From positions 1-21,546 of the IMG/VR virus record IMGVR_UViG_3300031774_000186: a stretch of 21,546 bases of DNA; one strand, 5' to 3'. The notes under the pieces were generated by a model, which saw only the letters and a list, made by a program, of their open reading frames with translations, did not search any database and was not told where the DNA came from. Within the stretch, counting starts at the first letter, position 1. Each line of letters opens with the position of its first letter. This DNA comes from a virus. The position numbers and the translations under genes are program-made. This document shows positions 3,289-18,489 of this stretch, one piece after another.

Positions 3289-3537
3289 TTACTTGCCTAC
3301 TTGCATCCATACGGCAGTAGCTATGAATGTCAGTACTGCAACTGTTCCTAATTGTACTAAAGTTTTCCAAATACTTTTCTTTGTGTCTCTCCAAGAGTCC
3401 AACAAACTACGTAGCTCTTTAATGTCACTAGCTGCATCCATATCAGATAAGCCTAAATCACACAAGGCTTGTCTAGCGCCCTTCTTAGCAGCTCTGTCAA
3501 GCATTTCTTCTAACTGTTCTGGTGTAAAGTCAGACAT
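3289..3537 (-). CDS. Small single-pass membrane protein, holin-like or virion accessory
   Basis: 82 residues: an N-terminal acidic/basic helical region (TPEQLEEMLDRAAKKGARQAL), a central charged helix, and one clear hydrophobic segment at about 57-78 (WKTLVQLGTVAVLTFIATAVW) ending in a short QVGK tail. The layout resembles small phage proteins sometimes filed under DUF6127, a match I make only from memory. The start is a TAATG overlap with the stop of the preceding gene and no good Shine-Dalgarno sequence is visible, so reinitiation after that gene is likely. With a wall hydrolase two genes downstream, a holin or spanin-like accessory role is possible; an internal membrane-tethered virion protein is the alternative. 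The gene is well supported, its function is not. Confidence 0.6.
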   Translation of the reverse strand: MSDFTPEQLEEMLDRAAKKGARQALCDLGLSDMDAASDIKELRSLLDSWRDTKKSIWKTLVQLGTVAVLTFIATAVWMQVGK

Positions 3538-4298
3538 TATAAGTTTACCGTATATGTTCCGGGGTTAGTATAAGTGTAAGTTGACCCACCTACAGTAATA
3601 GAAACTCTTCCACCAGCACCATTAGCACCAGTTGTACCACCGTTGGGATCAACACCACCAGTACCTTTAGCGCCTACTACAATAGTTAATACTGATCCTG
3701 TATAGATATTAACTGAGGAAGTACCTTGGTTTCTGTCTGCCGCAGAACCCCCAGCACCAGCGGGGTCTGTGTTGTATACTGAACCAAAGAAGTTTGTTTG
3801 TCTACGGCCTCCACCGCCACCGCCACCTGCGCCATACGATGTTGCAGGAGCAGCAAATCCGTTTTGTTGCTTATTGGAGTCAGCGCCACCAGCACCAAAT
3901 GCACTAGCCTCACCACTACTATCACCGCTATGGTTGAGAGAGCTTGCAGCGCCACCTGTGCCACCAGTAGAAGTTCTTCCTAAAATAGTTGCACCTGAGT
4001 GAGTAATAGTAAAAGTACTGTTACCGCCATTACCACCATCAACTTGACCACCAGTACCAGCGCCATTATTCATACCGCCACCGCCGCCGCCACCACCGCC
4101 GATTACATCGAAGGAGACAGACTCAACCGAGTCACTACCATACCATTCAGAAAAGTCCATATCTGTTGCAGAACCTTTACTAATTAAACCTCTTATATCA
4201 GAATCATTAAGTGAAACAGTAGTTCCACTTACACCTGACCCAGCTGCCTCTACGTGCATCTGGTTAAGAGAGATAGCTCCTGATGAAGGTAATGCCAT
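3537..4298 (-). CDS. Polyglycine tail adhesin/fiber protein
   Basis: 253 residues. The first 55 or so (MALPSSGAISLNQM, then SGTTVSLNDSDIRGL and FSEWYG) are the N-terminal module widespread in marine and T4-like phage fiber proteins. The rest is a glycine-rich domain with a run of nine glycines (67-75), a second run of seven in GAGGGGGGGRRQ, and many GAGG/GGTGG patches separated by short variable Ser/Asn-rich loops. It closes with the beta-strand-like GGSTYTYTNPGTYTVNL. Glycine-rich sandwiches of this kind form receptor-binding tips such as T-even gp38, in which polyglycine helices hold variable loops. I infer an adhesin at the fiber tip, because the gene directly follows the tail fiber gene. 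AAGGAC lies 9 bases before the ATG. Confidence 0.7.
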   Translation of the reverse strand: MALPSSGAISLNQMHVEAAGSGVSGTTVSLNDSDIRGLISKGSATDMDFSEWYGSDSVESVSFDVIGGGGGGGGGMNNGAGTGGQVDGGNGGNSTFTITHSGATILGRTSTGGTGGAASSLNHSGDSSGEASAFGAGGADSNKQQNGFAAPATSYGAGGGGGGGRRQTNFFGSVYNTDPAGAGGSAADRNQGTSSVNIYTGSVLTIVVGAKGTGGVDPNGGTTGANGAGGRVSITVGGSTYTYTNPGTYTVNL

Positions 4299-4309
4299 TA
4301 CTTAGTCCT

Positions 4310-6094
4310 TTAAGGTGTTAGAGCGCCATAAGCAGTTATATTACCTTCTACAGTAAGGTTACCATTAGCATCTAGTTGCATCCTACAGGTGCCACCAGTA
4401 AGAAATTTTAAAGTAGTTCCTGACTGTTCAATTTCCCAAGTGCCTAAGTCAAGTTTAGAGGCTTGTACGGTTGAATTAGGATCAGTGGAAAAAGCACCAG
4501 TAGAACTATTATAAGATATACCGCCACTAGCTGATAAAGCCTCTCTAGCTGGAGTTGCAACTCTCGCGTCTGTAAAGTAAAGATTACTATCGCCTTCAGT
4601 AATTGAATCTGTATCGTGATTACTTACATCACTAACCGTTCCAGTTACATCTCCAGTCAAATCTCCTTCGAAAGTAGAGGCGACAACAGTACCTGCAGTA
4701 CCAGTAAAAACTTCACTACTGTTTGTTGCATCTGGTATAAAGGTAAATTTACCTGAACTATCATCGAAACCAAAGAAACCTAGTTTAGCAGCGGTTCCAT
4801 TATGCCATTTAAACTCAATACCACGATCTTTGTTATCATCTGCGGCAGGTGCGGTATCCCCACCTAGTGTGAAAATAGGATCATCTACAGTTACAGTTGT
4901 ACTATTTACTGTTGTTGTAGTACCACCTACAGTAAGATCACCGTCTACTGTGAGATTATTAAAAGTAACATCATCAGTTGTAGCAACTTCTTGACCAATA
5001 GAGATCTCTCCGCTAGAGATAGATACACCAGTTCCACCACTAAGACCACTTTGAAGCTCAGTAGTAGTTGGCCCTGTGTAGCTGATAACGCCCGTAGTAC
5101 TATTATAAGCTATGTCACCTTGACCGCTAACTTTAGTAACAGAGATAGCACTTTTTGCTGCACTGTCTGCTCTAGTAGACGTATAGTAAAGATTACTAGT
5201 ACCTTCTGTTAAATCATCAGTGTCGTGATTAGACAGACTTGTGACTTGTCCTGTTAAAGTCGCTGGAACAGCCGCTTGCGTTACGTTACCGTTTGAGTCT
5301 GTTTCCTCTACAACCCCGTTATTAAGGATAATTGCTCCAGAGGAGTTTAATACGTCACCCTTTACGTTACCTGTTAGTAATCCTGAGAAACCACCGTTAC
5401 CTGTTACTGTACCTGTAAAAGTAGATGGGGGAGTTACAGTAAACGAACCAGTATTAGTAGCATTGCTAAAAGATACATTACCAACAACAGTTAAGTTGTT
5501 ATCTAAAGTTGCAACACCTGTTACATCTAGAGTACCTTGAAAATCAGCATTAGCACCAGTAAACTGAAGCGCATCTGTAGTACCAGACTTAATTGTCATA
5601 TTACCAGATACATTGTTTAGGCTACCAAAGTCAACACCAGCATCTTTTAAAAGAATGTTACCACCAGCTACATCTACAGTCATATCTCCAGCGACATCTA
5701 CAAGAAGATCACCTGATGAAACATCTATCTCGTTATCTGTAAGGGTCATATAACCACTAGTACCAGCTACTACAGTATTTCCATCAAGAGTATCCGCTGA
5801 AACAGTAGAACCAAATCTACCATTTTTAAACCTAGCGCTAGACGTTGAACCACCAAGATCTATAGTATTATCACCATTAGGTAAAACTTGAGTTGCATTT
5901 ACTGTAATCTGACCTGCAGGGCCAACCTTTTCAATAGGCGCTCCTGAGTCAGAAGAACTAGGATCGTGGTTGTGACCAGATGAACCACTGAAAGCACTTT
6001 GAACAGCATTAAACTCAGCATTAAGGTCATCAGCGTCAATAACCTCATTGTTAGCTATCTGACCTGTAGTATCTTGTCTTGTATATCCTGCCAT
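4310..6094 (-). CDS. Tail fiber protein
   Basis: 594 residues. The N-terminus contains DDLNAEFNAVQSAF and GHNHD...GAPIEKVG, a module typical of phage fiber proteins. The middle is a long series of beta-strand repeats of the type GNVSFSNATNTGSFTV and LTVDGDLTVGGTTTTVN, expected of a trimeric beta-structured shaft. Two copies of a longer unit, SNHDTD-x2-TEG-x-SNLYYT/FT followed by an Ala-rich stretch and YNSSTG, begin near residues 288 and 493; NLYYT/FT repeats are common in marine phage fibers. The C-terminus (KFLTGGTCRMQLDANGNLTVEGNITAYG) is another typical fiber end and no intramolecular chaperone domain is visible. The gene lies directly after the nozzle protein with AAGGAC ahead of its ATG, and before the polyglycine adhesin, suggesting shaft and tip of the same appendage. 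Confidence 0.8.
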   Translation of the reverse strand: MAGYTRQDTTGQIANNEVIDADDLNAEFNAVQSAFSGSSGHNHDPSSSDSGAPIEKVGPAGQITVNATQVLPNGDNTIDLGGSTSSARFKNGRFGSTVSADTLDGNTVVAGTSGYMTLTDNEIDVSSGDLLVDVAGDMTVDVAGGNILLKDAGVDFGSLNNVSGNMTIKSGTTDALQFTGANADFQGTLDVTGVATLDNNLTVVGNVSFSNATNTGSFTVTPPSTFTGTVTGNGGFSGLLTGNVKGDVLNSSGAIILNNGVVEETDSNGNVTQAAVPATLTGQVTSLSNHDTDDLTEGTSNLYYTSTRADSAAKSAISVTKVSGQGDIAYNSTTGVISYTGPTTTELQSGLSGGTGVSISSGEISIGQEVATTDDVTFNNLTVDGDLTVGGTTTTVNSTTVTVDDPIFTLGGDTAPAADDNKDRGIEFKWHNGTAAKLGFFGFDDSSGKFTFIPDATNSSEVFTGTAGTVVASTFEGDLTGDVTGTVSDVSNHDTDSITEGDSNLYFTDARVATPAREALSASGGISYNSSTGAFSTDPNSTVQASKLDLGTWEIEQSGTTLKFLTGGTCRMQLDANGNLTVEGNITAYGALTP

Positions 6095-8661: not shown

Positions 8662-8778
8662 TTACTTAAGTAATGTAATGTAGACATACCTATCAAAAGG
8701 TGTTGTGTCTTTCTCTACAAACACTGTTCTGAGTTCTTCTACTATAACAACAGTTCTTTCTTTTGGTGTACTTGACAT
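8662..8778 (-). CDS. 38-residue microprotein coupled to the repeat-protein gene
   Basis: A short open frame fills the otherwise empty space between the 1098-residue gene and the fiber-tail adaptor gene. It encodes 38 residues beginning MSSTPKERTVVIVEELRT and ending RYVYITLLK. The ATG shares one base with the preceding stop (TAATG), has GAGGG 7 bases upstream, and its own stop overlaps the next gene's AAGGA. The RTVVI...RTVFVE...RYVYI pattern echoes the C-terminal DRARTVYVSRAA of the 1098-residue protein just upstream. Short peptides with RTVYV-like strands occur next to phage adhesins, so it may be a tiny structural partner. It could also have arisen by splitting of a longer C-terminus. The signals favour a real gene; function is unknown. 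Confidence 0.6.
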   Translation of the reverse strand: MSSTPKERTVVIVEELRTVFVEKDTTPFDRYVYITLLK

Positions 8779-11700
8779 TAAGCAGCCCTCGACACATAAA
8801 CAGTTCTTGCTCTGTCATAAGAGTTCTTAAACTGCTCAAAGTTAAACCCGTCTGTAGATAAAGTTAAAGAACCTTTACTTACAGTGACTAAGGGTAGAGT
8901 ACTTAGTTGTACAGATGTGTTTATTACACCTTTTACTTCATCAGACGCATTGAAAGCAAAGCTTGCAGAGGGTAATACCTTTACAACATTTATAACTAGT
9001 AAGCCAGTTACAGAAGAAGAAGAAACTCCAGAAGGACTTGCCTCGCCTGTAAAGGCTTGTTCAATACTAAACGCTGTAGTAGAACTTACGCCTGTAATGA
9101 CAGCAATAGAATTTATATCAAGCGTAGGCGCAACTTGTGAAGTAGTGGACACAGAGCTAATAGCAACACTGCTATTATGAGAAGTAGTGAGAGAACCTAC
9201 TTGTAGTGAACCAACTACACCCTGTAAAGGCTCTTGACTAGAACCAGATAAGTTGTTAGTAGACACTGAAACTGATACAGAGGTTATAGGTACAGAAATA
9301 CCTACAGAAGCCTGACCTACAGATACCTGAGAAGATACAGATAATGCTGGGGGTATAATTTCATCTATGTCAACTATTAATTCGGAAATCTGTGACGCAG
9401 AGGTTGACGTTGGTAATGTTACGCTTAAGTTTATTACTAAGTTATTAACAGTTGTGCTTGAAGAAGTATTAGATACAAAAGCTTTTACAAGTAAAGCTAT
9501 ATCTTCTATGGAAAATTGAGCGCCTGTACCACTAACAGTTCTAGAGGATGACGCTGACTTACTAACATCGTTTACTGAAAATACGGAATTAGCAGAGGGA
9601 AGTACTTTATTACTTGAGTGTGTCTGGGTGACAGAGGTTGAGATTGAGTTTGAAGAAGTGCCTACTAAGTCTGCATTACCGTTTCCAATACTTGATAAAT
9701 TATTATCTATTAATGCAACGGATGTGGTAGAAGATATAGTAACAGATGAACTGACGGATAGATTTGCTGTAACTGTAGAAGATGTTGCACTAGGCAGACC
9801 AGCGCTTGGATTTACAGTAAATGTGCCTACAAAACCTTGAGAGGATGTAGTTAAAGGGAATGAAGTTGAGTCGCAAATAGGGGCAACATCTTCAACATTT
9901 ATTTGTAAAGGTACTGAAGTAAGTGACTTATTGCTTGAGTGAGTTTGACTAATATTTTCTAAAGACGTTACACCAGTAGAACTGTCAAGCTCTATACTGG
10001 AACTTACGTTAAAACTATCAATATTACCAGTTTGACCTGTAGAGGTAGCAGAGCTAGTAACAATGGTAGAGTTTACAGAAAAAGATAAGGGTGAAACAGA
10101 CGTACCAGAGCTTGTTTTATGGCTTTCTTCAAAAGGACTATCAAAAACAAGTGTATCAGCAGCGGTTGCATTATTTGTGAAACTGTTAGTAGCTGACCAA
10201 GTAGGTGTTGTTCTTTGATTAAGAACCCTACTCCGAACTGGGCTTAGGGATGAACCAGTTATACTAAAATCGGTAATCTGTCCAGTAAATGCGCTGCCGA
10301 ATGATCCATTATTATCACCTACGATAAACTTATCTAAGAAAAACTGATAAGATGAGGTAGTATAAGGGCCATAGCTTATTGTCATTAATTGACTGTTAGA
10401 GGCTAGAAGACTGCCACTACTGTCATAAATTTGTGCGTATACACGTTGACCCGCATTAAAAATACGACCTTTATACCAACTGTTAGGAGAAAAAGTACCT
10501 GAGTTGGGTAAGGCGACACTAACACTAGCGGCAGCGTTTCTACCTAACTGGTTACCTAATCTTACGTAACCACGAATGTTTTGAGTTGATGAAAGTGTAC
10601 CATAAGCCCTCTGGTATGACCAACCTGTCTTATCACCATCAGCCTGAAAGAAGTACTGCGTACCTCCAGTATAGTCAGAGGCTACTTTAAAGTAAAATTC
10701 AGCCCCAACACCATCATCCTGATACTGTGTAGAGCTTGTGTATTTAACCCCATTGAAGTCTACAGAACCACTGTAAGCGTAGACAGAAGAAGGTATACCT
10801 GAGTAGTATAAATTAGGTGTAGTATCTAAGAGAACATCAGCGTTTATAGTTTCGATACCAGAAACACTGCTTACCTGAGAAGGGGAGTTAACGCTTCCTG
10901 TAGAAGCTATAATAACAACTTCTGTGTCTAAATTATTTGATAGTGAGAAAGATGCAGATGTTGAAGGTAAGTTAGTGTTTGAGGATGCTGAAGAAGAAAC
11001 TTCAATAAATGTTTGTGATGTAACTTTAGCAAGAGTTGGGTTGCTAGAGGCTGTTTTAGTAACGGCGCTTAATACAGAGGTACTTGAAACAGAGGAGATA
11101 TCAACACTACTTGAACCACTAATATCCCCAGATATAACAGGAGAGCTTACCTTAGTAACAAACTTATTTGAACTAGTAGATAGCGTTAAAGAGGAAACAC
11201 TTAGGGCCACAGAAACTGCTACTATGTGTTCAGAAGGGCCAATCTGAATTGAACCTAGTTGTGTAGCAGATGTTAACGTTGAAAGGGTTTCGTTAGCTGT
11301 TCCATTCGAGCTAACTGAATTTACAACAACTGAAGAAGAGTTTCCAGTTAAATCTACGCCACTCCTTGGTGTGACAGAGTTAACTTGTACTGAAGAAGAT
11401 GTAGAAGTTAGTACCTGTAAGTCAGTGACTGTTACAGATAGACTATTAATGCTAGAACCAGAAGAAACACCGCTTAGAACACCTTGCTCTGAAGCACTTG
11501 TGGAGACAGTTCCTATTTGTGAGCTTGAGGAAACTGAGTTTAGAAGTTGTAGATCTTCACTAGTTCCTTGTGGTGATGAAACTTGACTTGCTGTACTTGT
11601 TGAAGAAAGTGGAATTACTATGTTAGTAACAATAGCTCCAACTTGAGAGGAGCTAGATACAGATGTTATTACTTGTGCATCTTCTAGTTGCACTCCTAAA

Positions 11701-12074
11701 GAGCTTATCTGAGAGGATGAGGAAACAGAAGAAAGAGTTTCCGAGTCTGTTACAGTTAAAGAAAGAGTTCCTAAAGCGGAAGTGCTAGATACTGATACTA
11801 AGGATTGGGTATCTGTAATAAAGCTTGAGATAGACCCTACTGCAGTTGTACTAGAAACAGACGTTAATACCTGACTGTCAACTACAGTAAGAGTTAAGCT
11901 ACCTGTAGAACCTTGACTAGAAACAGACGTTAATACCTGACTGTCAACTACAGTAAGAGTTAAGCTACCTGTAGAACCTTGACTAGATACCCCTGACAAA
12001 CTAATAGACGATGAGACTACTACAATCCCATCGTCTGATAGTGATGCTGATGCGAGAGGGTTGAAGCCTAGCAT
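8778..12074 (-). CDS. Large Ser/Thr/Val-rich repeat adhesin with LamG-like insert
   Basis: 1098 residues. The start MLGFNPLASASLSDDG is a module I associate with marine phage structural proteins. Almost all of the chain is built of degenerate repeats of about 22 residues, of the form VSS-x-S-x-x-GSLTLTV-x-D-x-Q-x-LTS; two neighbouring copies are identical. Such alternating strands suggest a long beta-solenoid or fibrous stalk. Residues about 412-610 interrupt the repeats with a different, aromatic-rich beta domain (AYSGSVDFNGVKY, VGAEFYFKVASDY, WYKGRIFNAGQRVYAQIYD, FTGQITDFSITG) that has the look of a LamG/concanavalin-like carbohydrate-binding sandwich. The C-terminus (FEQFKNSYDRARTVYVSRAA) is non-repetitive and may anchor or cap the fiber. 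AGGG precedes the ATG by 7 bases. I infer a receptor-binding or decoration fiber; no enzyme motif is visible. Confidence 0.65.
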   Translation of the reverse strand: MLGFNPLASASLSDDGIVVVSSSISLSGVSSQGSTGSLTLTVVDSQVLTSVSSQGSTGSLTLTVVDSQVLTSVSSTTAVGSISSFITDTQSLVSVSSTSALGTLSLTVTDSETLSSVSSSSQISSLGVQLEDAQVITSVSSSSQVGAIVTNIVIPLSSTSTASQVSSPQGTSEDLQLLNSVSSSSQIGTVSTSASEQGVLSGVSSGSSINSLSVTVTDLQVLTSTSSSVQVNSVTPRSGVDLTGNSSSVVVNSVSSNGTANETLSTLTSATQLGSIQIGPSEHIVAVSVALSVSSLTLSTSSNKFVTKVSSPVISGDISGSSSVDISSVSSTSVLSAVTKTASSNPTLAKVTSQTFIEVSSSASSNTNLPSTSASFSLSNNLDTEVVIIASTGSVNSPSQVSSVSGIETINADVLLDTTPNLYYSGIPSSVYAYSGSVDFNGVKYTSSTQYQDDGVGAEFYFKVASDYTGGTQYFFQADGDKTGWSYQRAYGTLSSTQNIRGYVRLGNQLGRNAAASVSVALPNSGTFSPNSWYKGRIFNAGQRVYAQIYDSSGSLLASNSQLMTISYGPYTTSSYQFFLDKFIVGDNNGSFGSAFTGQITDFSITGSSLSPVRSRVLNQRTTPTWSATNSFTNNATAADTLVFDSPFEESHKTSSGTSVSPLSFSVNSTIVTSSATSTGQTGNIDSFNVSSSIELDSSTGVTSLENISQTHSSNKSLTSVPLQINVEDVAPICDSTSFPLTTSSQGFVGTFTVNPSAGLPSATSSTVTANLSVSSSVTISSTTSVALIDNNLSSIGNGNADLVGTSSNSISTSVTQTHSSNKVLPSANSVFSVNDVSKSASSSRTVSGTGAQFSIEDIALLVKAFVSNTSSSTTVNNLVINLSVTLPTSTSASQISELIVDIDEIIPPALSVSSQVSVGQASVGISVPITSVSVSVSTNNLSGSSQEPLQGVVGSLQVGSLTTSHNSSVAISSVSTTSQVAPTLDINSIAVITGVSSTTAFSIEQAFTGEASPSGVSSSSVTGLLVINVVKVLPSASFAFNASDEVKGVINTSVQLSTLPLVTVSKGSLTLSTDGFNFEQFKNSYDRARTVYVSRAA
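11851..11982 (-). repeat. Perfect 66-bp tandem duplication in the repeat adhesin gene
   Basis: Bases 11851-11916 and 11917-11982 are identical over 66 bases; five more bases match before the third unit diverges. The unit is 22 codons, so the frame is kept, and it encodes two identical repeats at about residues 31-74 of the 1098-residue protein. Neighbouring protein repeats are only loosely similar at the DNA level, so this is a recent duplication. Confidence 0.95.
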
Positions 12075-12086
12075 TGTTTCGCCCTA

Positions 12087-13805
12087 TTAAGCATTAAATA
12101 CATAAGCTCTGGATGTTGGTGAAGAACTAAACGAGGACGCGCCTATCGCTACTTGTCCTGAAGTCTCGTGCACACTTACACCGTAACCAAAATTTGTATT
12201 AGCAACAGGTGTGGAAGCCGCAAGCACTTTTTTCTGCGACCAACTGGTTCCAGTTCTTTGAAAAATGACAGCTCGACCCTGATTACTAGAGTAAGAGTAA
12301 TTTCCTACGGCAACAGTGTCACCATCAATAGAAAGCGATCTTCCATAAGTACCTGATGTATCAGTGGGGTTGGGTGTTAATGTGGCTTGAAAAGACCAAC
12401 TGGTTCCAGACCTTGTCCACACCTCAACATTACCAGTAGTTCCGCTGCCGCTTGTGTAATAGCCGCAGCTTGCTACTAAGGTGTCTCCGTTGATTTTTAC
12501 CTGCTCACCCCATCCAGCGTTGGCTACCGCCGCATTATTAGAAGTGATTTTTTGCTGTAAGCTCCAAGAAGTTCCGCTTCTAGTGTAAACATATACAGCG
12601 CCGCCACTTGTTGAGCTATTGTTTCCAGTAGATCCAATAACTATTGTATCTCCATCAATATCTATATCGGTTAAATAATCATTATTTATATTAGTAGGAT
12701 TTATGCGTGCTTGCTCTGACCAGCTTGTACCTGATCTAACAAACACAAAAGCTTCACCAGCAGCGTTGATTGAAGAACCCGGTGGTTCACCCCAAGGCGA
12801 CCCCAGAACTGCCGTGTCTCCGCTAATTGCACAAGATTCTCCTGCGCTGTCATAATTAGCAGCAGTGCTCGCTATTAATTTTGCTTGCTGTGACCAAGTA
12901 TTCCCAGATTTATGAAAAATATACCCAGCGCCAGCGTTTGTAGCATTGTTTGTATCTTCTTTAGCCGTGACTAAAAGATAATCTCCATCAACATCTACGT
13001 TAAAACCAAATTGATCCTGATTTGCCGTATCTGAACCTACTAAGACTTGACTTTGACTCCAAGTTGAACCTGACTTTGTATAAACATATAAACGACCTTG
13101 ATAATTGCCGCCCGCAGCATAAGCACCGACAAAAAGCTCATCATCCGTCAACACTAAATGCCTTCCATATTGATCCCCTGCACCAGTAGATCCGCTGTCG
13201 CCAGATTGTAACATTTGAGTTTGGGAAAGGTTTGTCCAATCTGCGACAAACGACAGGCTAAACGCATTAGCGCTGGTAGCCTGATTGATGCCATCGCTGG
13301 CAGTAAAAGTCAGAGTAAAAGTAGCATCTTGGCTGGCGTGAGGTGTCACAGTGAATACGTTTGTATTGTTGCCAGTGCCTTGCGCTACGGTAGAACCGTT
13401 TAACGATCCGCTGGTAACGCTGTAGCCGTAGGTAAGCGGTACTTCCTCTGGATCAGCCGCTGTAATTGTAATCACTGTAGCAGTCTGATCTGTAGCCAAA
13501 GTAAATGGAGTAGTATTACTACCAGCATCTTGAACAGAAGTGATGTTAGGGTTCGTGTTCACCAAGCTAACAGAGTACCAGCCAGAGCCATTATTAATAT
13601 AAAAACGATTAGTGGCAGTCACATAAGCCATATCGCCAGCGCTGTTACCAGATAACGGTAATAGGTCAGCCGTATCGTAGACTACAGCCCCCGCAGCCAC
13701 AGTATCAAACGCAACGCCGCCAGAGCCAGTAGACTTAAGGAACTGACCGCTAGTACCATCGTCTAGGACGTTTGCGAGGGTGCTGAGATTTGATGCGTTG
13801 CTCAT
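12087..13805 (-). CDS. FG-GAP-like beta-propeller virion protein, copy 2
   Basis: 572 residues and a tandem paralog of the next gene upstream. The N-terminal part has the SGQFLKSTGSGGVAFD and RFYINNGSGWYSVSLVN modules, then a cadherin/Ig-like domain (about 87-185) with TVITITAADPEEVPLTYGYSV and TFTLTFTASDGIN. The C-terminal 385 or so residues are repeats of about 55 residues, each with a [V/Y]-x-V-[Y/F]-x-R/K-SG-x-[S/T]W-S strand pair and a following DGDT(I/L/V) strand. There are six SG/TG-x-SW repeats, plus an opening WTNLSQTQMLQ that would pair with the final SRAYVFN strand. That makes seven blades closed by the usual N/C 'velcro'. FG-GAP/integrin-alpha-type propellers bind ligands or sugars, so an adhesin role is inferred. 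AAGG overlaps the preceding stop and precedes the ATG. Confidence 0.7.
   Translation of the reverse strand: MSNASNLSTLANVLDDGTSGQFLKSTGSGGVAFDTVAAGAVVYDTADLLPLSGNSAGDMAYVTATNRFYINNGSGWYSVSLVNTNPNITSVQDAGSNTTPFTLATDQTATVITITAADPEEVPLTYGYSVTSGSLNGSTVAQGTGNNTNVFTVTPHASQDATFTLTFTASDGINQATSANAFSLSFVADWTNLSQTQMLQSGDSGSTGAGDQYGRHLVLTDDELFVGAYAAGGNYQGRLYVYTKSGSTWSQSQVLVGSDTANQDQFGFNVDVDGDYLLVTAKEDTNNATNAGAGYIFHKSGNTWSQQAKLIASTAANYDSAGESCAISGDTAVLGSPWGEPPGSSINAAGEAFVFVRSGTSWSEQARINPTNINNDYLTDIDIDGDTIVIGSTGNNSSTSGGAVYVYTRSGTSWSLQQKITSNNAAVANAGWGEQVKINGDTLVASCGYYTSGSGTTGNVEVWTRSGTSWSFQATLTPNPTDTSGTYGRSLSIDGDTVAVGNYSYSSNQGRAVIFQRTGTSWSQKKVLAASTPVANTNFGYGVSVHETSGQVAIGASSFSSSPTSRAYVFNA
12123..12143 (-). 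repeat. 21-bp sequence also present at 14418-14438
   Basis: The same 21 bases occur here in the last blade of propeller copy 2 and at 14418-14438 in a middle blade of copy 1. Both are read in the same frame as GASSFSS, with identical codons, although the two places are not equivalent in the paralogs. The flanking bases differ on both sides. Confidence 0.9.
13501..13530 (-). repeat. 30-bp sequence also present at 15232-15261
   Basis: Thirty identical bases are shared with 15232-15261, at equivalent positions in the two propeller paralogs (the DAGSNTTPFT segment that opens the Ig-like domain). Surrounding sequence is much less similar. This marks either strong conservation or recent exchange between the two copies. 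Confidence 0.9.
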
Positions 13806-13814
13806 AGATTAACC

Positions 13815-15536
13815 TTAACTTGTTGTGTATACAAAGACAGAACCAGCGTCAGCTTGGTTATTTATGTGATCGAAGCCTGCCGCAACTGCAACTTGCTCAC
13901 CATTAAAACTAGAAGCTAGTGTAGGATAACCAAAATAATCACCAGTAGTTGTGCCACTACCAGTAAGCACTTTTTTCTGTGTCCAACTTGCTCCTGACCC
14001 ACTATAAACCCAAGCCCGACCTGTATTACTGTTGTACCCGTGCTGGCCGATTACAATCGTTTTATCATCACCACCAAAATAACTTATAAAACTGTCATTA
14101 GCTATGACTGGAGTTATTGTTGCTTGGTGTGACCAAGTTGTACCTGATCTAGTGTATACAAAAATACCACCAACATTAGTATAACCACTTGGTGAATACC
14201 TGTTGGAACTAAAAATTAAAGTATCATTTTTAAGCACTAAGCCGCCAGAGCCTTGATAGAGGGCGCTAGAATCAGTTGTAGCGTGATTGATAGTTTGTTG
14301 TAGTGACCAAGTAGTTCCAGACCTAGTGTAAATATATATACCCCCACTATTTGTTATGCTATTTAAACTACCATAGGGAGCAGAAACAGCTATTGTATCT
14401 CCATCAATAGCTACGTTAGAACTAAACGAGGACGCGCCACTGGGTGCAGTAATAGCTTGTTGTAGCGACCAAGTGTTTCCAGAGGAATTATACCAAATAT
14501 AAACCTTACCGCCCCCAGTAAACTGCATTGCTCCCACAACAGCGGTTTGCCCACTTATTCCAACTGAGTGTCCATATAACACGTTAAAAGTTGGGTCACT
14601 TTGAGTCAAACCCGCAACTCGTGTCCAACTGTTTCCTGAACGTGTGTAAATATGAGCAGCCCCTGCATCTGAGACACCACCTACAGTTTCAGCCCTACCC
14701 CCTATTACCGCTGTAGAGTTTCCCGTAATGTCCATAGACCAACCAAAATTATCATTGCTTGTAATATTAGGTGGAATAAAATTTTGATTGTTTGTCCAAG
14801 TATTTCCACTTCTTGAATACGCCCAAACTCGACCAGTCCAATTTCCGCTTATGCGATCACCAGATGCACCAACAAGAAGGTAATTTCCGTCCTCTGAAAA
14901 AGCCATGCTTCTCCCAAAAATAGCATTTTGACTTGCCGTTCCAGCAGTTACCTGTTGAGTTTGTGATAAGGTGTTCCACTCAGGTAAAAACTCTAAAGTA
15001 AAAGATTGCGAAGCGCTGGTTGCTGTGTTTATCCCATCAGTTGCTGTAAAAGTTAGGCTAAATGTTGCTGCGTTTGAAGCGTGAGGAGTAACAGTAAATA
15101 CATTATTATTTTGACTTACCGTTGAGCCATTTAATGCCCCTGACGAAACAGAGTAATTATAAGTTAAAGCATCTCCTTCAGCGTCAGTAGCTGTAACGGT
15201 AACAACCGTAGATGTACCGTTAGTAGCCAAGGTAAATGGAGTAGTATTACTACCAGCATCTGCAATAGATGAAATAGTCGGCGTTTGATTGATCAACGCC
15301 ACAGAATACCAGCCAGCACCGTTAAATACATACAGCCTGTTGTTAGCACCTACAAAAGCAGCATCACCGTTTGAATTTCCAGAGCTAGGTAAATCACTAA
15401 CGTTGGCGTAATACGTTACTCCACCACCAGCATCAGTAAAAGTTGCAACTCCGCTGCCCTGCGAAGTCAGAACTTGCCCAGAGGTAGCATTGGTTATGGC
15501 TGTAGCTATGTTGCCAAGATTGCGGTTGTTACTCAT
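13815..15536 (-). CDS. FG-GAP-like beta-propeller virion protein, copy 1
   Basis: 573 residues. The N-terminus has SGQVLTSQGSGVATFTDAG and NRLYVFNGAGWYSVALIN, a module common in marine T4-like and podoviral fibers. Residues about 84-184 form a cadherin/Ig-like domain (STVVTVTATDAEGDALTYNY, FSLTFTATDGINTAT). Residues about 185-573 hold six SG-x-[T/S]W repeats, with DG-x-x-[I/L]-x-[V/F] strands between them, an opening WNTLSQTQQV and a closing GSVFVYTTS. This again predicts a seven-bladed propeller closed by pairing of its two ends. It is close to copy 2 in length and order, but the blade surfaces differ, so the pair may recognise different ligands. The start is a TAATG overlap with the glycine-rich protein gene, with GAGGA 7 bases upstream. 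The virion location is inferred from the N-terminal module and context. Confidence 0.7.
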   Translation of the reverse strand: MSNNRNLGNIATAITNATSGQVLTSQGSGVATFTDAGGGVTYYANVSDLPSSGNSNGDAAFVGANNRLYVFNGAGWYSVALINQTPTISSIADAGSNTTPFTLATNGTSTVVTVTATDAEGDALTYNYSVSSGALNGSTVSQNNNVFTVTPHASNAATFSLTFTATDGINTATSASQSFTLEFLPEWNTLSQTQQVTAGTASQNAIFGRSMAFSEDGNYLLVGASGDRISGNWTGRVWAYSRSGNTWTNNQNFIPPNITSNDNFGWSMDITGNSTAVIGGRAETVGGVSDAGAAHIYTRSGNSWTRVAGLTQSDPTFNVLYGHSVGISGQTAVVGAMQFTGGGKVYIWYNSSGNTWSLQQAITAPSGASSFSSNVAIDGDTIAVSAPYGSLNSITNSGGIYIYTRSGTTWSLQQTINHATTDSSALYQGSGGLVLKNDTLIFSSNRYSPSGYTNVGGIFVYTRSGTTWSHQATITPVIANDSFISYFGGDDKTIVIGQHGYNSNTGRAWVYSGSGASWTQKKVLTGSGTTTGDYFGYPTLASSFNGEQVAVAAGFDHINNQADAGSVFVYTTS

Positions 15537-16717
15537 TACGAAATCCTCGTTATTTTAGCATAACCTTGGTATTGAGAGCTGCTCATATAATCAGTGGCTT
15601 GAAAAGTAGTGGTGGCTGGGGCAAGGGAAAAACCAGTGAAGCTTACATACTTAGTATGGCCGGTGTTAATAAACCCGCCCGCCGAACAAGATGGCCCATC
15701 GAAACTTTGACCAGTAGTAAACCCGCCAGACGCATTGCCCGATTCATCTGAACCACCAGAACCACCGCCAAAGCCACCTTTCCCTGCAGTACTATTACTT
15801 CGATCCCCGCCAGCTAATCCATTAATCCACATTGCACCCATCGAAGAACTCTTATTTGAATTGTTACTGTGAGTTCCAAAAAAAGCTCCTCCTAGCACTG
15901 TATTCACCCCACCGGAGCTTCCATCAAGAGTACCTTGTCTAGAGTGACCATATTGCTGGGCAAAGTTCGATACCTGAGTGGCTGATACAGGATCAGTGCA
16001 AAGCCCTGTGTAAGACACGTTTCCAGTTGTACTAGAGGCAGCTATAGTTCTACTTGTAGCAGTTGTTGAGGGATTGGCCCCACCCCCGTCAGATGTACCC
16101 CCTGCGGCACCCGCTGCAACAACTAAAGGTATTGCGGCTGGATATGAGGCTGAGGAGTTTGGCAATATAGTAATAAAAGTACCGCCGCCAGCGCCATTAC
16201 AGTGATCCCCTAGCATATCAGGAACACCTTGACCTACAGCAACAACAATCATATCAGAATGCGAAAGAGCGAACCTTGCTTTAGCTATTTGACCCCGACC
16301 TCTAAATATTGGGTTGTCAGTAGCTCCCCCAGAGCCACCTTTGGCCTCAAGCTCGTAAGTACCGTTAACTGGAACTTTCCATAACTGAAACCCTGTCGCT
16401 TGCCCGTAAAAATAACTATATCCAGTAGCCCAAGAATACCCCGGCCCACCATTACTTGTACCCTGCACCCAACTTTGCATTTGAGCGTGCGTAGGGCCAT
16501 ATCTATGTTCATTTGAAACGTTGCTATTACTAAGCCCCCTAGATACTGAAAACGGCATTACAGAGCCTACTGCAAAAGGATAAAGTGCGGTTTCAAGGAC
16601 AGGCCAATTATTTTCTCTTTTTTCATCAGCAGCATTATTAACAGAAAAAATGCCAGAAGCAGATGAATCGCTTACTGAAGATTTTTTGCCAATAACTGAT
16701 GAATTATAACGCTGCAC
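15536..16717 (-). CDS. Glycine-rich (ALK-type glycine-rich domain) virion protein
   Basis: 393 residues from the preferred GTG start. The first 115 residues have no recognised domain. The rest reads like the glycine-rich region found in ALK/LTK receptors and in many phage and bacterial surface proteins: GTYELEAKGGSGGAT, GRGQIAKARFALSHSD, IVVAVGQG, NGAGGGTFITILP, PLVVAAGAAGGTSDGGG, then FGGGSGGSDESG and SAGGFINTG. The closing strand is YQGYAKITRIS. An adhesin or fiber-tip function is inferred by analogy with glycine-rich tips of T-even phages. I chose the GTG whose first base is the last of the upstream TAG (TAGTG), because GAGGAG lies 8 bases before it and other genes here show the same overlap. 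An ATG at 16741 gives 401 residues, but it lies inside the upstream gene and has a poor ribosome site. Confidence 0.65.
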   Translation of the reverse strand: MQRYNSSVIGKKSSVSDSSASGIFSVNNAADEKRENNWPVLETALYPFAVGSVMPFSVSRGLSNSNVSNEHRYGPTHAQMQSWVQGTSNGGPGYSWATGYSYFYGQATGFQLWKVPVNGTYELEAKGGSGGATDNPIFRGRGQIAKARFALSHSDMIVVAVGQGVPDMLGDHCNGAGGGTFITILPNSSASYPAAIPLVVAAGAAGGTSDGGGANPSTTATSRTIAASSTTGNVSYTGLCTDPVSATQVSNFAQQYGHSRQGTLDGSSGGVNTVLGGAFFGTHSNNSNKSSSMGAMWINGLAGGDRSNSTAGKGGFGGGSGGSDESGNASGGFTTGQSFDGPSCSAGGFINTGHTKYVSFTGFSLAPATTTFQATDYMSSSQYQGYAKITRIS

Positions 16718-17070
16718 TAGCTGATCTCCTCGTAGGAACATACAGCTTCAAGATCAGAGGCAGTGCTGGCAGTTAATCTAAGAGCGTCACCTTCTTCTAA
16801 ATAAATAGCTTTAGCTAAAACGTCTAAAGTTGCATCGGCGGGAATAGTAATAGTTTTAGCTACGTGATAAGCAGTGCTAGACCTATATAAATCTACTGTA
16901 ATTTCTGCGTTGTTAGTTCCATCAACATTGCTCACATACAGGGCATTCACTTTTAACACTTTGCCAGAAGAAGCTGAGTTTGTAACGATTGCCGTTGCAG
17001 AGGTGCCAACTGCTTGCACCGCCGTTTTACCCGTAATGGTAGCAACGTTTACTATATTAGGTGCTGTCAT
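16717..17070 (-). CDS. Small conserved marine-phage structural protein
   Basis: 117 residues: MTAPNIVNVATITGKTAVQ, SGKVLKVNALYVSNVDG, ITVDLYRSSTAYHVAKTI, AIYLEEGDALRLTAS and the end EAVCSYEEIS. This compact all-beta protein is of a kind I have met in many marine phage and cyanophage structural clusters without a known function. It has no signal peptide or membrane segment. It sits between the copper-site fiber and the glycine-rich protein, and may be a connector or small decoration subunit for them. GGAGGT, lying in the last glycine codons and stop of the upstream gene, is 6 bases before the ATG, a very strong ribosome site tied to the end of that gene. The gene is certain; the role is unknown. 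Confidence 0.7.
   Translation of the reverse strand: MTAPNIVNVATITGKTAVQAVGTSATAIVTNSASSGKVLKVNALYVSNVDGTNNAEITVDLYRSSTAYHVAKTITIPADATLDVLAKAIYLEEGDALRLTASTASDLEAVCSYEEIS
16726..16731 (-). promoter_or_regulatory. Shine-Dalgarno GAGGAG that decides the GTG start
   Basis: GAGGAG lies 8 bases before GTG 16717, inside the Glu-Glu codons near the end of the 117-residue gene. It is downstream of the alternative ATG at 16741, so it can only serve the GTG. Confidence 0.65.
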
Positions 17071-17073
17071 ATT

Positions 17074-18489
17074 TTAACCTCCAAATACGATAGCCATAGC
17101 AATCGCCTTTCCTGTTGTTACGCCGCCACTGGACGCATCAGCAAACTCTAACGCTGTAGCTCCGCTATTCATTTGTAAGATTTGACCCGCTGTGCCTAAG
17201 CTTGAAGGCGTATCAGTAAAGCCAGTTATAGATGTGCCCGATCCAGACAACGCCCCGTGCTCAACTACTTCAACCACATCGCCAGAGACAAATGCTGAAA
17301 AGCCTGTTATTGAAGTGCCGTTGCTTGCTGTGAAATCTACGCCGCCGCCTCTGAGCTTAACGCCGTTCTTGTAGACCGCTACTTTGGTAGGGGTGTAGTT
17401 TGCTGTAACCGAAGTTGCCCCTGTCGTGACCGTAGGAAACGAACTAGAGTAATTACTGGCAAACGGAGAGCCATATTCAACGACTTCTACAACATCGCCC
17501 ACAGCCGTTGCACTAATGGTGATTTGCGTATCAGTAGCTGTAACTTCGCTATCTTGAAGCTTAACGCCGTTAAGAAACACTGAAATGTTTTCAGCTTTCC
17601 AAGTGCCAGTGAAAACAGTTTGACCCGACGTAGCTGTAGTTTTCGTAGTGGTAATTGGATCTAAAGAGCCGCTAGAAGAACTACTGCCACTAGCCGTAAC
17701 TACGCCAGATCCATCTATAGATAAACCTGTGCCGATCTTAATACCGCCAAGCGTATTCGCAGAAGCAGTCGGCAAAGTGTAGTTGTTAGCGCTGGCAGCT
17801 ACACCATCAAGTTTTGTCTTATCGGCTGATGACATAAGGCCAGCGGCTGATGTTGTGGCGTTAGAATAGCTAGTGCTGCCTACGTTTATCGTACCGCCCA
17901 TACCACTGTGATTGGTGCAGTAATAATAAAGGGTGCTTGGCGCATCCTGCTCTAGCTTTACCTCAACGTATTTAGACCCAACAACGGTTACGCCAGTAGT
18001 GAATTGAGAACTGTTTGCCCCATCTACTTGCGTAGCCAATCGAAATGGGTGACTTGAGTTAGTGCTATCAGAAACATCAAAGCGGTAGGTAACAGACGGC
18101 ACTAAAGTAATCGTCTGATTAGCAGTACCATCAATCAGGTAGTTGCCACCCGATACAGTGACCGTAATATCAGCATAAAGCAGATCAAGATCGTCTGCAG
18201 AAGCACTGATAAAGACTTTGGTGTTACCTGATGAGTAACTTCCTAAGTTAAGTAAAGAACCAGTGCTAGAGCTAGTTAAAGTCCTAGAAGTTAAGCTAGG
18301 GCCACTACTATCGTATACTGCAGTTCCTACTTCCCAAGCACTACCTTCCTCAATCACATAACGTAGAGTATGCCCATTTAAAGAAGTAGGCACTACTTGA
18401 AACCCAGACTCTGCAGAGCCTAAGCTTATAGTAGTGCCTGTACCAGTAGTAGATGTACTGACTTTTACACGATCAGCAAACTTTGCCAT
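17074..18489 (-). CDS. Tail fiber-like protein with embedded cupredoxin domain
   Basis: 471 residues. Residues 1-105 (ADRVKVSTSTTGTGTTISLG, YVIEEGSAWEVGTAVYD, NTKVFISASADD) are a phage fiber N-terminal module. Residues about 106-204 look like a small cupredoxin: NYLIDG strands, VTYRFDVSDSTNSSHPFRL, TGVTVVGSKYVEVKLE, and YYYCTNHSGMGGTINVG. His147, Cys191, His194 and Met197 supply all four type 1 copper ligands, and the C-x2-H-x2-M spacing is that of amicyanin. A short AAGLMSSADKTKLDGVA collar follows. Then come two related beta domains (about 278-342 and 352-413), each with VFLNGVKL/VYKNGVKL and ending GDVVEVVEYG/EHG. The C-terminus is GKAIAMAIVFGG, an end I associate with marine phage structural proteins. 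AGGG precedes the ATG. Fiber architecture is well supported; copper binding is inferred from residues only. Confidence 0.7.
   Translation of the reverse strand: MAKFADRVKVSTSTTGTGTTISLGSAESGFQVVPTSLNGHTLRYVIEEGSAWEVGTAVYDSSGPSLTSRTLTSSSTGSLLNLGSYSSGNTKVFISASADDLDLLYADITVTVSGGNYLIDGTANQTITLVPSVTYRFDVSDSTNSSHPFRLATQVDGANSSQFTTGVTVVGSKYVEVKLEQDAPSTLYYYCTNHSGMGGTINVGSTSYSNATTSAAGLMSSADKTKLDGVAASANNYTLPTASANTLGGIKIGTGLSIDGSGVVTASGSSSSSGSLDPITTTKTTATSGQTVFTGTWKAENISVFLNGVKLQDSEVTATDTQITISATAVGDVVEVVEYGSPFASNYSSSFPTVTTGATSVTANYTPTKVAVYKNGVKLRGGGVDFTASNGTSITGFSAFVSGDVVEVVEHGALSGSGTSITGFTDTPSSLGTAGQILQMNSGATALEFADASSGGVTTGKAIAMAIVFGG

Follow-up and report, generated by a model that had tools for sequence, protein, structure and literature searches.

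A fiber protein of a marine phage, encoded on a 21,546-base virus record (the window, which is the whole stretch of DNA that was analysed), contains at residues 106-204 a domain that is predicted with high confidence, from a structural model, to have the cupredoxin fold (a Greek-key beta-sandwich). Copper proteins are not expected within a virus particle. The reading considered best, at a probability of about 0.5, is that this domain is a cupredoxin module whose type 1 ligand set (two His, Cys and Met) is intact and which serves as a metal-clamped structural or adhesive domain between the virion anchor and the stalk of the fiber.

The fiber gene and its domains

The fiber gene is the second gene downstream of the major capsid (coat) protein gene, in a capsid-tail cassette like those of the Roseobacter CRP phages and Puniceispirillum phage HMO-2011, to which the DNA around the coat gene is about 67-72% identical. 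The gene and the features assigned to it are as follows.

17074..18489, minus strand: fiber gene, 471 amino acids, ATG start (PHROG tail-fiber matches and Pfam Phage_head_fibr)
18178..18489, minus strand: N-terminal domain, residues 1-104, putative virion anchor (AF2 pLDDT 83)
17878..18174, minus strand: predicted cupredoxin domain, residues 106-204 (AF2 model, Foldseek, VIA, BFVD and alignment of relatives)
18049..18051, minus strand: codon of His147, putative copper ligand 1, in SSHPF (alignment of relatives)
17917..17919, minus strand: codon of Cys191, putative copper ligand 2, in YYYC (alignment of relatives)
17908..17910, minus strand: codon of His194, putative copper ligand 3 (alignment of relatives)
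17899..17901, minus strand: codon of Met197, putative copper ligand 4 (alignment of relatives)
17719..17871, minus strand: fiber-stalk motif, residues 207-257 (Pfam PF11133, Phage_head_fibr)

Residues 1-104 are about 40% identical to the N-terminus of gp58 of Roseobacter phage CRP-603, a protein with a similar anchor and no cupredoxin domain behind it. The N-terminal domain has no significant Foldseek match and no PHROG match; its best match in the PDB by VIA is a chain of the phage GP4 portal-tail complex, which was set aside as a clue to the site of fiber attachment because its Z score of 6.3 is below the reliable level. The Phage_head_fibr match at residues 207-257 scores 34.1 bits, above the curated cut-off of 24.6, and covers only 51 of the 277 profile positions; behind it are two small repeats that look alike by eye.

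Predicted fold and putative ligands of the cupredoxin domain

The AF2 model of residues 102-208, made with 47 natural sequences as input, is all-beta with a pLDDT of 91.4 and a pTM of 0.84. In the numbering of the model, Cys191 ends the strand at 85-90, the ligand loop runs into the strand at 97-102, and His147 precedes the strand at 48-51; the type 1 ligands His, Cys, His and Met are thereby predicted to occur in this order, with Cys, the second His and Met on the loop that precedes the final strand. A Foldseek search of the PDB with the model matched rusticyanin and plastocyanin at E 8e-5; rusticyanin, plastocyanin, pseudoazurin and multicopper oxidases lead the list at E about 1e-4, and a few unrelated proteins are interspersed. 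By VIA, rusticyanin (2cal) aligns with a Z score of 9.5 and 2.7 A over 94 residues. The original prediction of a small cupredoxin in this part of the fiber is borne out by the model and by these matches, and His147, Cys191, His194 and Met197 are all where it placed them, with the C-x2-H-x2-M spacing that it described: residues 191-197 read CTNHSGM, and the same spacing occurs in amicyanin. The residue after the first His is Pro, as in laccase T1 sites, and is Asn in plastocyanin. Cys191 is the only Cys of the fiber protein, which has four His (40, 147, 194 and 411). Chance occurrence of the motif was considered and rejected, as H-x30..55-C-x2-H-x2-M arose in three of 200,000 shuffles of the protein, and conservation also speaks against it.

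Sequence comparison gives much fainter signals. Pfam PF00127 (Copper-bind) scores 14.1 bits on the fiber domain and 19.8-20.5 bits on a copy of the module in cyanophage P-SSM2, both below the curated cut-off of 21.2; phmmer and hmmsearch against the PDB returned no related solved structure, only weak unrelated matches such as cytochrome bc1 and antibodies. Since the Pfam score is below the cut-off and no PDB sequence matches, the domain is not classifiable by sequence alone. An hhalign comparison of the module with the plastocyanin of P-SSM2 is weak (probability 2%), and yet the Cys and the His are aligned.

The module resembles the small blue copper proteins (plastocyanin, pseudoazurin, amicyanin, rusticyanin and auracyanin) in predicted fold, in the order His, Cys, His, Met and in the position of the ligand loop, but those proteins are small, soluble and secreted and serve a redox partner, whereas the module is internal to a protein of 471 amino acids that has no signal peptide or known redox partner. 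The plastocyanin gene (petE) that cyanophages carry as a host-derived metabolic gene is another phage-encoded cupredoxin, and P-SSM2 has both kinds; petE encodes a free, secreted electron carrier that scores 66.9 bits with Copper-bind, whereas the fiber module belongs to structural proteins and resembles it only distantly.

Conservation of the ligands

All four ligands are present in 88 of the 88 relatives that were found first. Among the matches listed in later scans there are 219 distinct domains, of which 211 have His, Cys, His and Met, one is truncated at a contig end and seven deviate; these counts come from pattern-seeded scans of sequences that are akin to each other and do not represent independent events. 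All seven deviants are without both the Cys and the first His, and the loss of a single ligand occurs in none of the 218 complete domains among the matches listed. The deviants belong to few lineages (the P-SS2 type, one of the two module copies in gp7 of P-HM2, and two copies in one SAR116 contig), and thus independent losses number about three or four rather than seven. When the domains are clustered at 60% identity, 42 of the 46 clusters (mean pairwise identity 34%) have all four ligands, and the four ligand columns rank within the top seven for conservation. The codons of the ligands are used in nearly equal proportions, CAT and CAC as well as TGT and TGC each being near 50:50, which indicates that the silent positions are saturated.

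The patterns used for scanning held LYYYCTNH, and an artefact of sampling was ruled out for Cys, His194 and Met by a query without the C-x2-H-x2-M stretch, which recovered 56 complete distinct domains that all keep the motif (two further domains found with this query end at contig ends and are outside the 56). The artefact is excluded less fully for His147, which was included in one pattern of the motif-less query. When members bearing the LYYYCTNH pattern are left out, 91 of the 99 remaining rows keep all four ligands.

Ligands that are kept or lost together, in codons whose silent positions change freely, are the expected outcome of selection on a metal site, and this pattern, as judged from sequence comparison, points to such selection. 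The original prediction had argued for selection on metal binding from the presence of the four ligands in one protein and had proposed that homologs be examined for their invariance; the wider sampling supports that argument. Metal binding by the module is well supported by inference.

A virion-borne relative without ligands

In purified virions of cyanophage P-SS2, ORF 080 (63255-63593; 112 amino acids) averaged nine peptides (PMC2784084). This protein is a relative of the module without His, Cys and His, and its detection in virions makes the module family virion-borne. In the virion proteomics that was found, this ligand-less protein is the only member of the family, with no evidence found for a ligand-bearing copy. 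BFVD entry C7F4C6, which is taken to be P-SS2 ORF 080 by its length of 112 residues and its place in the BFVD list, keeps the fold (TM 0.81 by query). Thus, not every lineage requires the metal for this fold. Stand-alone ORFs of the P-SS2 type without His, Cys and His were seen in four loci, one of them at 3492-3830.

Distribution of the module in phages and bacteria

The original prediction treated the domain as the peculiarity of one fiber, but the same module was found by tblastn in 354 phage records, nearly all of them named for Synechococcus, Prochlorococcus, Pelagibacter or Methylophilales, and in at least 594 IMG/VR stretches; a few bacterial surface proteins have it too. In T4-like cyanophages it forms the C-terminal part of gp9, and other carriers are a tail fiber of a Pelagibacter phage, a virion protein of S-TIM5, gp7 of P-HM2 and a long protein of P-SSM2; its placement may be N-terminal, internal, C-terminal, stand-alone or tandem. 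The module scores against several PHROG tail families, and the copies in the C-terminal domain of gp9 (PHROG 677) and in PHROG 30742, 693 and 708 are homologous with the same ligands. These copies are in baseplate and tail-fiber proteins of myophages, and the annotations seen for them make no mention of copper or cupredoxin.

Bacterial and archaeal assemblies contain 40 loci with the module, with titles that point to marine sources; several of these loci are probably phage contigs. Two module-bearing contigs were binned both as Neomarinimicrobiota and as Flavobacteriales, and for this reason are probably misbinned phage contigs. Lipoproteins of the K189A clade and of SAR86 have the module and are surrounded by ordinary bacterial genes; in the K189A-clade lipoprotein, the module is at the end, behind cadherin repeats. 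The plasmid collection yielded no match to the module. In a tree of 77 domains, cellular copies are scattered with five changes between phage and cell, of which at least two are forced. The module is a widespread mobile unit that occurs in tail and baseplate proteins of marine phages and in some surface proteins of bacteria.

Three minor observations concern relatives of the module. In phage-like ORFs at five loci, one or two cupredoxin modules come after a conserved N-terminal domain (MARFASGR..YGISDRSGFRY), which in some of them looks like a zinc ribbon. Fold matches in BFVD include 'Beta-sandwich' proteins of Pithovirus and Marseillevirus metagenomic genomes (A0A481Z6J5, A0A481Z7Q7 and A0A481YVH3). 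Near the K189A cupredoxin lipoprotein gene, and probably by coincidence, is a MerR-type regulator with a C-terminus like that of zinc regulators (4290-4799 of that locus).

Proposed function of the module

The fiber would be synthesized in the host cytoplasm with its Cys reduced, and the folded domain may then bind one metal ion per chain, obtained from the lysate or from seawater. We infer both that a metal is bound and which metal it is: copper is the likeliest because the ligand set is Cys-His2-Met. The metal ion would link the His loop with the Cys-x2-His-x2-Met loop, locking that end of the domain as a rigid surface and making the module a metal-clamped structural or adhesive beta-domain between virion anchor and stalk rather than an electron carrier. 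The mechanical or adhesive role is conjecture. It is favored over electron transfer because the placement of the module varies and is not fixed at a tip, being between anchor and stalk in this fiber, and because a bacterial relative is adhesin-like.

The same fold could have been reused as an adhesin or spacer with Cys, His and Met kept for packing and the site empty in life. Persistence of ligand-less relatives in virions fits such a history, as does the established fact that free copper is very low in the cytoplasm, where fibers are made. Residues that serve packing should be replaced individually, however, and the loss of Cys and His147 together or not at all speaks against a role in packing only, as does the rank of the ligands among the most conserved columns; the explanation is judged unlikely. 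If a metal is bound, it might be zinc or another metal, since most cells have more zinc available than copper and a zinc-bound cupredoxin (4hcg) is among the structural matches, but Cys-His-His-Met is typical of copper and zinc sites more often consist of Cys, His, Asp or Glu, as is generally known, which makes occupancy by a metal other than copper improbable. Exchange of electrons with a redox protein on the host surface, or reaction with oxidants, is suggested by a ligand set that is that of electron-transfer cupredoxins and by the nearest folds, rusticyanin and plastocyanin. No gene for a redox partner or oxidoreductase is recognisable among the ORFs of the window or by Pfam, many phages whose hosts are unrelated have the module in structural proteins, and the bacterial relative is in an adhesin-like protein; a redox-active domain is accordingly given very little credence, and nothing in the analysis supports the binding of a host redox protein that was among the earlier suggestions.

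A further suggestion, binding to an outer-membrane copper receptor, likewise finds no support in the analysis, and the corresponding explanation, in which a copper-loaded cupredoxin on the fiber is recognised as a Trojan horse by a copper transporter of the host outer membrane, is considered distinctly doubtful. It would account for an intact ligand set across hundreds of marine phages, and it has partial precedents in the reported binding of azurin, a cupredoxin, to the copper transporter OprC (PMC6907878) and in the entry of pyocins SX1 and SX2 by way of CrtA, a copper-regulated transporter (PMC10422930). Work with native OprC did not reproduce the azurin-OprC complex (PMC8610252), however, and a receptor-binding role is at odds with a module that has no fixed place in fibers, is here between anchor and stalk, and is shared by phages whose hosts are unrelated and by surface proteins of bacteria. 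The model for such an explanation is the Ferrojan horse hypothesis of iron in phage tail fibers, where iron-binding HxH tail fibers (T4 gp37 and Alteromonas phage R22Y) likewise carry metal-binding residues (PMC11705849), but with different ligands; none of the four His of the fiber described here (40, 147, 194 and 411) forms an HxH motif.

For the metal-clamped structural or adhesive module, the consequences depend on whether the site is filled. Its recurrence with four ligands that are nearly always kept suggests that marine phage particles may carry copper, a reading that comes from sequences. Copper on the surface of marine phages would be a new and testable element of virion stability or attachment, would tie phages to marine copper, and would give meaning to a module that is now labelled 'tail fiber', 'baseplate wedge tail fiber connector' or 'hypothetical' in hundreds of genomes. 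A broader idea is that marine phage virions, as a class, have copper-loaded, dedicated cupredoxin modules in their fibers and baseplates and use the bound copper either for engaging the host, in a copper version of the Ferrojan horse, or for sensing the environment. It is speculative and rather improbable; if it were true, phages would be part of the organic copper pool of the ocean. In the open-access literature, no description was found of a cupredoxin module in a phage tail fiber or baseplate. The fold family itself is known, but a recurrent module of virions that has its ligand set intact appears to be undescribed.

Other genes of the window

Downstream of the fiber gene on the minus strand, the consecutive genes at 15536-16741 and 16717-17070 overlap by 25 bases. 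Two adjacent genes (12087-13805 and 13815-15536, minus strand) encode similar proteins of 572 and 573 amino acids, the second of which has FG-GAP (integrin-like) repeats and cadherin/Big_9-type domains that are unusual for a phage structural cassette. The gene at 8778-12074 (minus strand) encodes a protein of 1098 amino acids with many repeated segments like SVSS or TSVSS.
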